Part shown: piece after piece, positions 508 through 24,096 of the stretch | How the letters are laid out: each line of letters starts with the position of its first letter | How positions within the stretch are numbered: the first letter of the stretch is position 1 | Assembly (NCBI GenBank): GCA_015152565.1 | Contig: SUTT01000009.1 | Span: forward strand, 1 to 57,328 | Direction of reading: 5' to 3' | Length of the DNA stretch: 57,328 bases | DNA from: Cyanobacteria bacterium SIG27 | GTDB taxonomy: Bacteria > Cyanobacteriota > Vampirovibrionia > Gastranaerophilales > Gastranaerophilaceae | Position numbers and translations under genes: made by a program | Notes under the pieces: model-generated | The model's database searches: none | Told to the model about the DNA's origin: nothing | Seen by the model: only the letters and a program-made list of their open reading frames with translations

Positions 508-3012
508 CTATTTTATAGGCACCGTGTATGATATACATCTTGCTGCAAATGCCCAATTTTGAGCAGTAGCACCAGGAACACCGATAGTTGTCGCATTTTC
601 TAATCGATATAAATATGTACCCTCGACAGTCCAATGAGCACTAGGCCAACATTCGTTACTTTGTGCTCCCGGGCAACTTGTGCTTCTATGCGTACAAACA
701 AGTTGTTTGGAATTAGTTGAAGTATCTGCACAAACATTTAACCCATTTTCATCTAAAGAAAATATTTCCCTAAAATTATCAATATTATTGTTATAGTGGT
801 GTGCCCAGCTATATGCAGTGTTATAGTCAGGCAGCTGCCAATGATGGTGTTTTGTACCAAGTGGGTTCCAAAAAACGCAAGAATAATGTGCTGCATGGTA
901 TCCCATAACAGGTCTTTCGCATGGATTACCTCTGTCATTAACAGTATAATCGCACGATTTTCCTGTTTGTCCTGTCCAGATACAATTAGAACTGGCGCAA
1001 GTTTCACCCACTTGCACAATTTGCACTCCATAATAAGGGGAGGTTGAAAGAGTTCTTGGTAGTGGAGGACCACCCGGCATGCCAACATCATGTTTTGTTA
1101 CGCAAAGATTCTTGTTGATTGTACCATTATATTTTCTTGGAATAAATAAAGCATTAAAAGGATCACAATCAGCTTGCTTTGTAGGTTCACCATAAACTTC
1201 AATGTTTCTCTTAGTGTTTTTTACTGCAAAATTTGAACTTTTACTGCCTGTAAAATTTTTTGGCAGAGAATCTATAACGCATCTTCCAGAAAATGCATAC
1301 AAAGGATTAAAAGTACCAATATTTGTAGTTGATGCAAGTACTTGCAAGCCACTTGTAGCAGACCAAAGGTCAAAAGGGTGGCAGTTATTTAAATCTCCAG
1401 TGCCATAGGCTGCGCCTTTGCATCCGCCAAAATTTGTAGCGCATTGCACTTCATAAATAGACATGGATGAATCGGTTGGCCATTGAGCGCATAACTGAAG
1501 CCCATTTTGTCCTTTTTTCCTAGAAATTGTAGAAATATTATTTTTCCAACCCGTAATTTCATTATTTGTTGGAAGTCTCCATCCGCTAATTTTATACCCA
1601 TTTACATCAGGTTGCCAATTTTTACAGCTAATACTTGCAGCTCCTCTTTGACAAACCGTTCTATTACAGCCAGAATAGAAAGAACCGTATTCGTCTTCTT
1701 CTGTACAACTTGCAGATGTTCTACCCAACCAACAACAAAGAGCATTAGCTTCATTTGTTCCAGCGCTCGTTACGGGGCAAGTTCCAAGAACAACGCTTTT
1801 TACACTTGCGTCTAAAGGTGGACCTCCAGGGTCACCGATATTATATTTCGTAACGCACAATCCCTTTCCTCCGCTTCCATTATAGGAAGCTGGCACATAT
1901 AAAGCATTAAACGGGTTGCAATCTTCTTGAGAAGTTATACTTCTTGTTGCATTATTACTGCAATTTGCGCCATCATTTATTAACTCATATCCGCTTTTAC
2001 AAGCAAGACATTTACCGTCATAACACATTGAACAATTTTCAATATCATTACACGCAGCAGATACAACCGCGGCTTCTTCTTCGCAATCTCCGGCTTCACT
2101 TAAATTATATCCATCTTTACATACTACACACTTATCGGTTGCACATAATGCGCAATTTACATCAATATCTGCGCAATCGTTTTTGTATATGCTACCGCTT
2201 GAACCAGTTTGAGTAGCTTCTGAAAGCTTAAGAATGACCACACCCGAGCCACCAACCGCACCATGACCTCCGCCCCAAGCTCCAGCGCCTCCACCGTCTC
2301 CGGTGTTAGCGCTTCCAGCCGTTCCGCTCTTACCTTGACTTGCAGTAGCACCAGAGCCACCTCCGCTAGTTGAACAACTATCGTAAGCATCTCCACCGCC
2401 ACCGCCATAGTAACTACCATCATACAATGTTCCAGCCTTACAGCTATATGATGAACTGCTGCACGCACCAGCTCCACCAGCACCACCAGAAGCTGTTCTA
2501 TCTTTAAATTTTGTTGTGCCGCCAGCTCCGCCACCATTAGAGCACCCTCCAGCATTGCCAGTGCCTCTTGAACCACCAGCACCAACAACCACATCAATAT
2601 TTTCATTAGCTGTGATATTTAAACTTGTTTCGGTTACTCCACCACCAGCGCCGCCATAACCGCCGCCTTGATTAGCGGTAGAACCACCGCCACCGCCTCC
2701 GCCTCCACCAACAAGAAAGATTTTAGCTTTAGCATTACAATCGATTTTAAAAGTGCCACTTGATTTAAGAATGAATTTTCTTGTGTCATCAGCTTCCATA
2801 GATTCAGTGTATGTGCCATTGTATTCAACCGTACAATCTTCAATCGGCACATTTGTATTTTCATTATTCAAACCACCGCCACTTCCACCACCGATGATTG
2901 TGATACCTGCACTAGATAGTTTTTTAGTTATCACAGGAGCAAGGGCTGCTGTGATGAGGGATACTATGATTAGAGCCACCAATATTTCAACAAGAGAAAA
3001 AGCTTTTTTCAT
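508..3012 (-). CDS. Giant prepilin-like Gly-rich/Cys-rich surface protein (834 aa)
   Basis: This is a large protein with a type IV prepilin-type N-terminus. After Met-Lys-Lys-Ala comes FSLVE and a roughly 20-residue hydrophobic helix, the class-3 signal cut before Phe and methylated by prepilin peptidase. The rest is far larger than a pilin. Residues ~100-265 are glycine-rich with long Gly runs. Residues ~280-350 hold Cys-X2-Cys repeats of the 'NCALC..KCVVC' type, resembling furin/VSP-like modules. Two related C-terminal domains (~360-600 and ~620-834) each start near 'DC(N/D)PFNAL' and carry 'GGPPL' and 'W(R/Q)LP' motifs, like DUF1566/Fib_succ_major domains. The start is secure: AAAGG lies 7 nt before the ATG. 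It is divergent from an XRE regulator. Its paralogue at 21571-24096 has one C-terminal domain and more Cys repeats. A surface adhesin or minor-pilin role is inferred. Confidence 0.8.
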   Translation of the reverse strand: MKKAFSLVEILVALIIVSLITAALAPVITKKLSSAGITIIGGGSGGGLNNENTNVPIEDCTVEYNGTYTESMEADDTRKFILKSSGTFKIDCNAKAKIFLVGGGGGGGGGSTANQGGGYGGAGGGVTETSLNITANENIDVVVGAGGSRGTGNAGGCSNGGGAGGTTKFKDRTASGGAGGAGACSSSSYSCKAGTLYDGSYYGGGGGDAYDSCSTSGGGSGATASQGKSGTAGSANTGDGGGAGAWGGGHGAVGGSGVVILKLSEATQTGSSGSIYKNDCADIDVNCALCATDKCVVCKDGYNLSEAGDCEEEAAVVSAACNDIENCSMCYDGKCLACKSGYELINDGANCSNNATRSITSQEDCNPFNALYVPASYNGSGGKGLCVTKYNIGDPGGPPLDASVKSVVLGTCPVTSAGTNEANALCCWLGRTSASCTEEDEYGSFYSGCNRTVCQRGAASISCKNWQPDVNGYKISGWRLPTNNEITGWKNNISTISRKKGQNGLQLCAQWPTDSSMSIYEVQCATNFGGCKGAAYGTGDLNNCHPFDLWSATSGLQVLASTTNIGTFNPLYAFSGRCVIDSLPKNFTGSKSSNFAVKNTKRNIEVYGEPTKQADCDPFNALFIPRKYNGTINKNLCVTKHDVGMPGGPPLPRTLSTSPYYGVQIVQVGETCASSNCIWTGQTGKSCDYTVNDRGNPCERPVMGYHAAHYSCVFWNPLGTKHHHWQLPDYNTAYSWAHHYNNNIDNFREIFSLDENGLNVCADTSTNSKQLVCTHRSTSCPGAQSNECWPSAHWTVEGTYLYRLENATTIGVPGATAQNWAFAARCISYTVPIK

Positions 3013-3165: not shown

Positions 3166-3483
3166 ATGAATATTAAAAAACACTTGGGTAAAAGACTACA
3201 AGAAATCAGAAAGCATAAAAAATTAACTCAAGAACAAGTTGCAGAATTTGTTGGCATAGAAACTTCAAGCATAAGCAACATTGAAAATGGAAAGTACTAT
3301 CCAAGCGCTGAAAATTTAGATAAAATCCTAAAAATTTTAGATGTTCAACCAAGCGAAATTTTTGCTTTTGAAAGCTCAATTTGTGATGAAAAAATGATAG
3401 AAGAAATGCTAGAAGATATAAAAAAAGACAAAAAGCTAGCAAAATTAATTTATAAATTTTATTTGAGCGTAAAATTTTTATAA
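3166..3483 (+). CDS. XRE-family HTH transcriptional regulator (105 aa)
   Basis: Residues ~7-65 form a Cro/C1-type helix-turn-helix: 'LGKRLQEIRKHKKLTQEQVA' precedes 'TSSISNIENGK' in the recognition helix, then the usual 'P(S)...L.KIL' segment. The ~40-residue C-terminal tail is charged and helical, possibly for dimerisation. AAGGATGA lies just upstream of the ATG. It is transcribed away from the giant prepilin-like gene across a palindrome-containing gap, so local control of that gene and of itself is the natural inference. The same arrangement recurs at 21189-24096. Its 3' end faces yqeK 11 bp away. Confidence 0.85.
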   Translation: MNIKKHLGKRLQEIRKHKKLTQEQVAEFVGIETSSISNIENGKYYPSAENLDKILKILDVQPSEIFAFESSICDEKMIEEMLEDIKKDKKLAKLIYKFYLSVKFL

Positions 3484-21188: not shown

Positions 21189-21473
21189 TTATTCGTAAAA
21201 ATTAAAATTATTAGGCAATTGGTTTTCAATTAGCTTTGCAAATTGCGAAAATTCCAATCCAAAAGCATTTGCCAATTTCCAAAGAGTAGTGATTTTGGTG
21301 TCTGTTGTGCCGTTTTCAAGACGAGACAAAAGCCCATTTCCAATGTCATATTCAAAAGAAAATTTATTTATACCTTTTTTTAATTTGCGTCTTTGCTCTA
21401 AGACAACTTTTCCAATTGTAGCTAAAAGTTGCTTTTTCTTTTGCTCTATTATCATTGAATCTTCATCAACCAT
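21189..21473 (-). CDS. XRE-family HTH transcriptional regulator (94 aa)
   Basis: A Cro/C1-type helix-turn-helix covers residues ~15-75: 'IGKVVLEQRRKLKKGINKFSFEYDIGNGLLSRLENGTT', then 'TLWKLANAFGLEFSQF'. It is a single-domain protein of 94 aa. It is convergent with the nrtR-like gene (2 bp between stops) and divergent from the second prepilin-like gene, with TATTGA-N6-TCAATA between them. It is only distantly similar to the 105-aa regulator at 3166, but the arrangement is the same, so local control of the prepilin-like gene is inferred. TATAAT lies ~20 bp before its ATG. Confidence 0.83.
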   Translation of the reverse strand: MVDEDSMIIEQKKKQLLATIGKVVLEQRRKLKKGINKFSFEYDIGNGLLSRLENGTTDTKITTLWKLANAFGLEFSQFAKLIENQLPNNFNFYE

Positions 21474-21504: not shown

Positions 21505-21536
21505 TATTGACTGCAATCAATAGCATGTTGTATTAT
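21505..21536 (+). promoter_or_regulatory. Promoter with overlapping palindromic operator for second prepilin-like gene
   Basis: TTGACT (21507-21512), an 18-bp spacer and TATTAT (21531-21536) form a good sigma-70 promoter. The -35 box lies inside the inverted repeat TATTGA-N6-TCAATA (21505-21522), so a bound XRE protein would block it. Another TATTGA copy at 21491 adds a possible third half-site. Confidence 0.6.
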
Positions 21537-21570
21537 TCTTTTTGTATTCACGATTTTGAAAGAAATAACA

Positions 21571-24096
21571 ATGAAACAAACAGAACAGGGCGAAGCCGTT
21601 AAAAAAACGGCAAAATGTTCAATTTTGACGTTTTTAGGCGGAGCAATCCAGTGTAATCATCTTATTATCCCAAATGGATTGCCACGCCCTAAAGGGCTCA
21701 CAATGACGAAATCAACATTTAATTCTATATCTCGTCATTGCGAGGATTTAACTAAAGAATCTATTGTAATTAAAGCTAAATCATTGCAAATAGATTCTTC
21801 GGTAGTTTCACTCCCTCAGAATGACAAACCTAAAAACGACTGTACAACCCGTCATGCTGAATTTATTTCAGCATCTTACAAGGTTGGAAAACGAAAAATA
21901 AGCTACGCTACTCCTCAGACCCTGAAACAAGTTCAGGGTGACAGATATAAAGCTGCTTTTTCTCTTGTGGAGATACTAGTGGCACTCATTATGGTGTCTT
22001 TGATCACAGCCGCAATTGCACCTGTTATAACCAAAAAACTATCTAGTGCAGGTATCACAATCGCCGGAGGTAGCGCTGGAAGTGGAGAAACTTGTGCCGT
22101 ATGCCCTGATGGATATACGTTAAATGCTGATAATAAATGTATTTCCAGCTCCTTTGAATTCGACCAAAGCACTGTAGCGTGGACAAAAGAAACAAAAGAA
22201 GATGGAAGCGTTAAATTAACTCTTACCGGTGGCACAACTTTTACACCACAAGTGAACGCAGAAGCAACAGTATTTCTTGTTGGAGGCGGCGGAGGCAGTG
22301 GCGGAAGTAGCACACATTGTGGCGCGGGTGGCGGTGGCGGATATACTGCAACTAGTGAATATTCTCTCAGAGCTGGTGAAGCTATAACAATTGCTATCGG
22401 TGCTGGTGGCGCAAAGGGGAGTCGTGGCGGCACTACTAAATTTGGAACAATAACTGCAGGTGGCGGTGGAGGTGGTCAAACAAATGACCAATCTAGTACC
22501 GGTGGTGATGGCACAGGAAAGGGTGGAAATTTTAATCATGCTGGTGCCGATGGTATTCAGTTTGATGGTGTATGGTATGGTGGTGGCGGTGGAGGAGGCG
22601 CTACTGGCTGGAATCCCCCTGGAGGTAAAGGCGGAGGAGGAAGCGGACGACAAGGTCAAGGTATAAAAGGGACTAATGGTCTTGGCGGAGGAGGAGGAGG
22701 CTCTTGTGTTTACACGAATGGTGTAAAAGGTGGCTCCGGAGCTATTGTTATATTGATTGAAACCGAAAAAAATATAAAAGAACCAAACTATGCTGCTTGT
22801 GGTGGTTCAGGTGGCGGAAGTGCATACAAAAACGATTGCGCAGATATTAATTGCGCATTATGCACATCTGATAAATGCGTGGTTTGTAAAAACACATATG
22901 AACTTCAAGATGATGGAACATGTAAAAAAGAGGATGCACTTGATGTTAATTCTTTAGTTAATCACCCATATACAACTTCTTGTTCATCATCATTTACGGA
23001 CTGTGCATTATGTTCATCAAGTGCTTGTGTTGTGTGTGATGATGGACATATTTTGTCTGATAGTGGAACTTGCATTGATGATCCAAACCTCCCAATTTGG
23101 AATTCGACAACTTGTACAGATATGCATTCAAAATGCGTAGCTTGTACGAGCGAAAAATGTTTAGCATGTTCTAAAGGATATCACGTTAATAAAAATGGAA
23201 CATGCACTGCTGATACGCATACGGTAGTAACAACATGTACTAATGTTGATGCTAATTGTATATTGTGCAATAAAAACACTGCAGGTGAAACTTGCTATGC
23301 CTGTGGTAGTGGATATATTTTAAATGGCGGCACATGCATTCAAGCCTTGCGCACAGGACAACCAGAAAAGCAAGCTGATTGTGATCCATACAACGCTATA
23401 TTCATTGAAAAAGCCTACAATGGGACTACAAATGTAAATCTATGTGTTGCACGATATGATGTTGGTATGCCCGGAGGTCCTCCAATATATTACGCAGGTC
23501 CAGGACATCCATATTCAAGCGATATAAGATCGGTTGGCGACACAAGTGCAACATCATGCCTAAATGCCGCTGGATTATGCGCTTGGACAGGCGAAACAAG
23601 CAGAACTTCTGCTTATGATATGGCGCATGTTCGAGGACATGGAAATTATAGACCCGTTATGGGTTATAATGCTGCACACCATTCATGTGCTTTTTGGTCA
23701 CCCTTTGGCGCCACCCATTTAAAATGGCAATTGCCAACAAAGGCAATGGTTGAAGGATGGAAAAGCGCAATGGCAAACAAAGCAGCATTTAGGGAAAAAT
23801 TCTTCACAGATCCATACGGAGCAAACTTCTGTACAAGTAATTCTGTAGGCGGGGGCAGTGTTGTCGTGTATTGCGCCAATAGAAACACAAGCTGCGTAGG
23901 CGCATACGACAATGGCACAGGAACGGGAGCGCTCAACGATTGTTGGCCATCAAGACACTGGATATACGATGAGGGTAGTGCTAATCATTACTATTACGAA
24001 ATGAAAACAGATACACAAATGGATATTCAGCTTGTCAACAATCTAAATTGGGCTTTTGCAGGCAGATGCGTTTCGTATGATGTAATTATTAGATAA
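21571..24096 (+). CDS. Giant prepilin-like surface protein with repeat-derived N-terminal extension
   Basis: This is a paralogue of the 508-3012 protein. The class-3 pilin segment 'AAFSLVEILVALIMVSLITAAIAPV' appears only after ~129 residues, because three palindromic repeat elements (21637-21943) are read through in frame. After the helix come one CxxC module, a Gly-rich region, four more Cys repeats ('CALC..KCVVCK', 'CALC..ACVVCD', 'CVAC..KCLACS', 'CILC...CYACG') and one C-terminal domain ('ADCDPYNAIF', 'GMPGGPP', 'WQLP'). The start is uncertain: ATG 21571 (used, 841 aa), TTG 21556, or ATG 21703, which leaves 85 residues before the cleavage site. No in-frame ATG is closer. Whether prepilin peptidase can process such a long leader is unknown. 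Confidence 0.72.
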   Translation: MKQTEQGEAVKKTAKCSILTFLGGAIQCNHLIIPNGLPRPKGLTMTKSTFNSISRHCEDLTKESIVIKAKSLQIDSSVVSLPQNDKPKNDCTTRHAEFISASYKVGKRKISYATPQTLKQVQGDRYKAAFSLVEILVALIMVSLITAAIAPVITKKLSSAGITIAGGSAGSGETCAVCPDGYTLNADNKCISSSFEFDQSTVAWTKETKEDGSVKLTLTGGTTFTPQVNAEATVFLVGGGGGSGGSSTHCGAGGGGGYTATSEYSLRAGEAITIAIGAGGAKGSRGGTTKFGTITAGGGGGGQTNDQSSTGGDGTGKGGNFNHAGADGIQFDGVWYGGGGGGGATGWNPPGGKGGGGSGRQGQGIKGTNGLGGGGGGSCVYTNGVKGGSGAIVILIETEKNIKEPNYAACGGSGGGSAYKNDCADINCALCTSDKCVVCKNTYELQDDGTCKKEDALDVNSLVNHPYTTSCSSSFTDCALCSSSACVVCDDGHILSDSGTCIDDPNLPIWNSTTCTDMHSKCVACTSEKCLACSKGYHVNKNGTCTADTHTVVTTCTNVDANCILCNKNTAGETCYACGSGYILNGGTCIQALRTGQPEKQADCDPYNAIFIEKAYNGTTNVNLCVARYDVGMPGGPPIYYAGPGHPYSSDIRSVGDTSATSCLNAAGLCAWTGETSRTSAYDMAHVRGHGNYRPVMGYNAAHHSCAFWSPFGATHLKWQLPTKAMVEGWKSAMANKAAFREKFFTDPYGANFCTSNSVGGGSVVVYCANRNTSCVGAYDNGTGTGALNDCWPSRHWIYDEGSANHYYYEMKTDTQMDIQLVNNLNWAFAGRCVSYDVIIR
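21637..21688. repeat. Palindromic element 1 (GGAGCAATCCA type)
   Basis: The arms 21637-21650 and 21675-21688 are complementary at 12 of 14 positions (GGCGGAGCAATCCA with TGGATTGCCACGCC). The right flank CTCACAATGACG is the usual outer end of this widespread palindrome class. The element is translated within the prepilin-like gene. Confidence 0.7.
21733..21826. repeat. Palindromic element 2 (CGTCATTGCGAGGA type)
   Basis: The segment starts CGTCATTGCGAGG and ends CTCAGAATGACA. Inner arms AAAGAATCTATTG and CAAATAGATTCTT are near-perfect complements. Outer ends pair imperfectly (GTCATTGCGAGG with CCCTCAGAATGAC). It is read without a stop in the frame of the prepilin-like gene. Confidence 0.75.
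21849..21943. repeat. Palindromic element 3 (two-hairpin GTCATGCTGAA...TTCAGGGTGAC type)
   Basis: Two hairpins, ATGCTGAA-tttat-TTCAGCAT (21854-21874) and CCCTGAA-acaag-TTCAGGG (21920-21938), sit in outer CGTCA/TGACA ends. The translation 'RHAEFISAS...TLKQVQGD' is a familiar peptide signature of this dispersed repeat in many unrelated bacterial genomes. It abuts the pilin helix, separated by 8 nt from the first conserved codon. Confidence 0.8.

Follow-up and report, generated by a model that had tools for sequence, protein, structure and literature searches.

The window, that is, the whole stretch of 57,328 nucleotides analysed here, comes from a contig (C6) of the 1.84-Mb draft genome of an uncultured gut bacterium. 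A neighbouring NUDIX-type gene shares 98% protein identity with a Candidatus Gastranaerophilales record from goat caecum, which makes a gut member of this order very probable. It carries a gene for a prepilin-like protein with an extended open region ahead of its conserved helix (Table 1). The frame runs from position 21571 or earlier (21556 or beyond) through the helix, whose FSLVEILV begins at 21958, to the stop at 24096, and the mature part of 712 codons is intact; the list of open reading frames starts the gene at TTG 21556 and gives it 846 codons. The preliminary description of this DNA placed a good promoter ahead of the gene. A site matching the consensus at 10 of 12 positions is indeed present, but shuffles of the region yield 1.9 such sites by chance, so that the promoter is weak evidence. 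On the minus strand of the same window, a paralogous pilin gene begins ATGAAAAAAGC, as described previously. Searches against Rfam and for tRNAs gave no matches.

Table 1. Features of the prepilin-like locus and of its paralogue within the window
Feature	Position	Strand	Remarks
Paralogous pilin gene	508..3012	-	Ordinary 4-residue leader MKKA
HTH regulator gene, divergent from the MKKA paralogue	3166..3483	+	153 nt from the paralogue's ATG
Cro/C1-type HTH regulator gene, divergent from the pilin gene	21189..21473	-	Pfam HTH_3, E 1.5e-7, above cut-off
Sigma-70-like promoter	21507..21536	+	TTGACT-18-TATTAT; 10/12 consensus match; weak
Prepilin-like gene	21571..24096	+	Open frame; 841 codons from ATG 21571 plus stop
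Predicted leader peptide	21571..21957	+	129 codons; ends ...RYKAA before FSLVE
Dispersed palindromic element A	21637..21707	+	Core 21637-21688; hairpin z -2.1
Alternative start ATG	21703..21705	+	Inside right end of element A; AAAGGG 6 nt upstream
Dispersed palindromic element B	21732..21828	+	Hairpin z -5.8
Dispersed palindromic element C	21850..21945	+	RHAEFISAS...LKQVQGD; hairpin z -3.4
Conserved class III signal helix	21958..22062	+	FSLVEILVALIMVSLITAAIAPVITKKLSSAGITI; common to 19 paralogues in the genome
Glycine-rich domain	22225..22752	+	Pfam Gly_rich_2, protein residues 219-394, E 3e-9

Three palindromic elements, A, B and C, lie in the region between ATG 21571 and the helix. All three lie where they had been placed before, except that A extends to about 21707 (...GGGCTCACAATGACG); its right end matches GTCATTGTGAGC on the minus strand. 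Element B has relatives that are 75-80% identical over 71-92 nt, with copies of its arms reaching 97%. For element C there is a single close relative of full length (84% over 94 nt; C27:26293-26386), which precedes another pilin helix, and a 77% copy is located on the downstream side of a third pilin gene. Own-genome searches with pieces of the leader recovered about 41 clusters of related sequence in the 1.84 Mb besides the four pilin leaders considered below, and the elements form RNA hairpins with z values of about -2 to -6 (-5.4 for the leader folded as a whole). The elements are thus dispersed, multi-copy and palindromic, which bears out their characterization as widespread dispersed palindromes and agrees with the Rickettsia palindromic elements (RPEs) in these respects. 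Of these clusters, 16 are no more than 500 bp from a pilin-like gene; the flanks of the 39 such genes account for 2.1% of the genome (binomial p about 2e-6, also with a background five times higher). This concentration is suggestive, given that the queries were derived from pilin leaders and that some pilin copies may have been duplicated together with their flanks. Because no full-length copy found is more than 87% identical, a chimaeric join at the repeats in this draft assembly is unlikely.

The preliminary description also stated that no stop interrupts the frame through the repeats, and this is the case from 21571 to 24096. For each of the three elements, five of the six frames contain stops and the sole open one is the frame of the gene; the 387-nt leader remained open in none of 2000 dinucleotide shuffles. 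Together with three more paralogues of the same construction, this points to in-frame insertion into a coding gene, as in RPEs, with translation presumed. Many copies outside the leaders are also open in the matching frame, the repeat families being rich in open frames; stops in that frame occur in three of the long relatives of the insert found in another paralogue (C52) and in the sole long non-leader copy of element C. Openness of the leader may therefore be partly inherited from the elements themselves. An in-frame ATG, GTG or TTG start is kept by all 139 pilin genes surveyed in 12 genomes of the genus.

Comparison within the genome sets this leader apart. Leaders in 15 of the 19 paralogues that share this helix measure 4-10 residues from the nearest ATG. 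Four paralogues have long ones: 129 codons in the present gene, 100 in the paralogue on C27, 59 in that on C52 and 54 in that on C47, of which a second ATG would shorten the C27 leader to 62 codons and the C47 leader to 12. All four contain dispersed sequence; the insert of C52 has eight dispersed copies (79-87% identity), and that of C47 has 45 nt in common with contig C11 at 96%. The extended leader of the present gene is about ten times the usual length, and even the range of 85-129 residues allowed by its two possible ATG starts is far above the 4-30 residues of nearly all other surveyed genes. These four repeat-built leaders support the proposal that in-frame palindromes form an N-terminal extension in the manner known from Rickettsia.

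In both the present gene and its C27 paralogue, element C ends at one and the same codon, 15 nt ahead of the helix codon TTT. The helix codons differ with pN 0.08 and pS 0.63 and the repeat-leader codons with pN 0.21 and pS 0.13, values that rest on 33 and 40 codons only. The helix codons are thus under strong purifying selection, and the repeat codons are free of amino-acid constraint, as would be expected of a discarded piece. The two copies of element C are also younger than the genes that carry them, so element C probably arrived twice or was exchanged between the genes.

The repeats had been thought to have replaced the original start of the gene, and the position of its regulator argues otherwise. 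A divergent Cro/C1-type HTH gene, identified among the paralogues with a home-made profile, adjoins 18 of the 19 paralogues in this genome and lies beside 112 of the 138 pilin-like genes with enough upstream sequence in 12 congeneric genomes; a literature search found no description of such an arrangement, with one divergent Cro/C1-type regulator per pilin gene. In the 15 ordinary paralogues of the genome, the distance from the start of the regulator gene to the ATG is 78-183 nt. The upstream ATGs of the four long-leader genes fall within this range (97, 122, 156 and 171 nt), with 97 nt for ATG 21571, whereas their helices lie 333-484 nt from the regulator (484 nt in the present gene) against a genus median of 179. 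Since the spacing at ATG 21571 matches that of the ordinary paralogues, the repeats most likely went in downstream of this original start, inside the leader, rather than in its place.

ATG 21703 may nevertheless be the start in place of ATG 21571. A start supplied by the repeats themselves, at ATG 21703 in the right end of element A, with AAAGGG as ribosome-binding site and a leader of 85 residues made of B and C, would have the better ribosome-binding pairing (-4.5 kcal/mol, against a weak -1.2 at ATG 21571; good pairing, -5.6, is seen at the upstream ATG in the C27 paralogue). Its distance of 229 nt to the regulator gene exceeds the 78-183 nt seen in this genome but stays within the 5-95% range of the genus (88-277), and the frame is also open upstream to 21571, which such a start would not need. 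We regard this start as unlikely. After TTG 21784, no in-frame ATG, GTG or TTG occurs from 21787 up to the helix, so that B and C must be translated from either ATG.

A different view would be that the repeats constitute an untranslated 5' regulatory RNA, that translation starts at the near-cognate CTG 21922 and that the open frame upstream is incidental. The leader would then be MKQVQGDRYKAA, with a normal length of 12 residues, and an identical CTG is found in the C27 paralogue; the strong RNA hairpins also suit this view, as does a published warning that many N-terminal repeats are really extragenic (PMC3733652). However, CTG 21922 lacks ribosome-binding pairing (+0.8) and is part of element C itself, so its presence in C27 is not independent, and, their repeats being different, the paralogues on C52 and C47 would have to start at other downstream codons. 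With the leader staying open in none of the 2000 shuffles, we consider this account improbable. Still less credit can be given to the suggestion that the locus is silenced, decaying or a silent cassette whose frame is open by chance. The lack of an orthologue at this place in the relatives examined would agree with it, but the intact mature part, the purifying selection seen in the helix codons, chance openness below 1/2000, the in-frame start in every one of the surveyed genes and the three further paralogues of this kind all speak against it, making a silenced locus very unlikely. The other form proposed at the outset, processing from a very long leader, emerges as the likely one.

The protein has the marks of a prepilin, with a hydrophobic helix, Glu at +5 and Gly/Ala before the helix (...KAA followed by FSLVEILVALIMVSLITAA). 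The Pfam N_methyl profile gives E 0.0011 for it, just under the cut-off, and TIGR02532 exceeds its cut-off for the paralogue. Prepilin leaders are hydrophilic, vary in length and have Gly or Ala as their last residue; the positive-inside rule keeps them in the cytoplasm, and a peptidase removes them at the cytoplasmic face (PMC10191384). In all four long leaders the final residue is Ala or Gly, and the last 25 residues include four to six Lys/Arg but no more than one acidic residue. The genome has one gene of the prepilin peptidase family PF01478, at C29:3844-4164. Topology thus permits a long cytoplasmic leader. We consider it probable that three repeats have extended, in frame, the class III leader of a type IV pilin-like surface protein encoded by this gene, and that they are tolerated there and removed by the peptidase. 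Transcription would begin near 21543, and ATG 21571 would start translation; about 129 residues of repeat-encoded leader would remain in the cytoplasm as the FSLVEILV helix enters the membrane, and prepilin peptidase would cut between Ala and Phe, leaving a mature pilin the same as without the repeats. In-frame insertions could then survive in the discarded leader at little cost, and insertions bringing a stop or a frameshift would be lost. Because removal of the leader is predicted to precede any use of the protein, the repeat insertions are probably harmless, that is, neutral.

Beyond this genome, the traces of the pattern are weak. Of 20 congeneric loci next to the downstream methyltransferase gene, and of 25 loci next to the NUDIX gene, none holds a matching pilin, and a scan of named genomes with the whole pilin found no relative. 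Across 383 genomes of the family, element C and the helix were matched together only by the present gene and its C27 paralogue. Leaders of 15-30 codons in one species (G022) proved to be neither dispersed repeats nor enriched in hairpins, so the repeat-built leader is not general in the genus. Among leaders of 53-89 codons in another species (G026), only that of locus L135 holds a 37-nt piece, with weak copies elsewhere, and counts at best as one independent case. In the same species, locus L130 has 70 open codons before the pilin helix, charged and probably helical; a suspected HTH domain in this leader had no Pfam match. The palindromes of the present gene often abut the start codon in a second pilin-like family (FTLAEVMIVLTVIG, about ten copies), as at L022 (C44), L023 (C54), L258 (C51) and L256 (C8), and in some copies GGAG stands between palindrome and ATG. 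In several cases a pilin helix or palindrome is found no further than about 200 nt from a contig end (G000, G014, G021 and G026), as if these repeats break assemblies.

In-frame palindromic insertions are known chiefly in Rickettsia, and why proteins tolerate them there is unclear. RPEs, the nearest known kind, are dispersed palindromes, about 100-150 bp in length, that sit in frame within protein genes; every one has its preferred open frame, and some are N-terminal and expressed (PMC10969869; PMC3733652), although many N-terminal repeats in other species may be non-coding (PMC3733652). The likeness to the elements described here concerns only the manner of insertion, and the phylum is a different one (here Candidatus Gastranaerophilales). 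Whereas RPEs strike unrelated genes, the in-frame copies found here affect one gene family, at one position before the prepilin peptidase site. By description, the elements can also be likened to the CGTC-tagged REP or MITE palindromes, which are short, carry CGTC at one end and are mostly intergenic, with some within ORFs (PMC3733652). On the protein side, long-leader type IV prepilins, such as T4b pilins and the major pilins of Streptococcus sanguinis, share a variable class III leader ending in Gly or Ala and a hydrophobic helix after it, often with Glu at +5 (PMC10191384); the leader considered here differs from theirs in its 85-129 residues and in being built of dispersed repeats. What sets the present case apart from the Rickettsia type of insertion is the concentration of in-frame palindromes in one gene family and in one removable segment.

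A discarded leader offers a simple reason for tolerance and a natural test, in which the same repeat is compared inside and outside a cleaved segment. It also raises the question of what length of leader can be handled by prepilin peptidase and by the route of membrane insertion, and gene prediction in uncultured gut bacteria can misplace the starts of such genes. More tentatively, pilin leaders in this lineage might be a preferred landing place, with palindromes shuttling between pilin genes and around them and being used as translation-tuning hairpins or as recombination homology, an idea that we think unlikely. If true, the palindromes would give homology for recombination among some 19 regulator-pilin pairs, or would tune the translation of each pilin.
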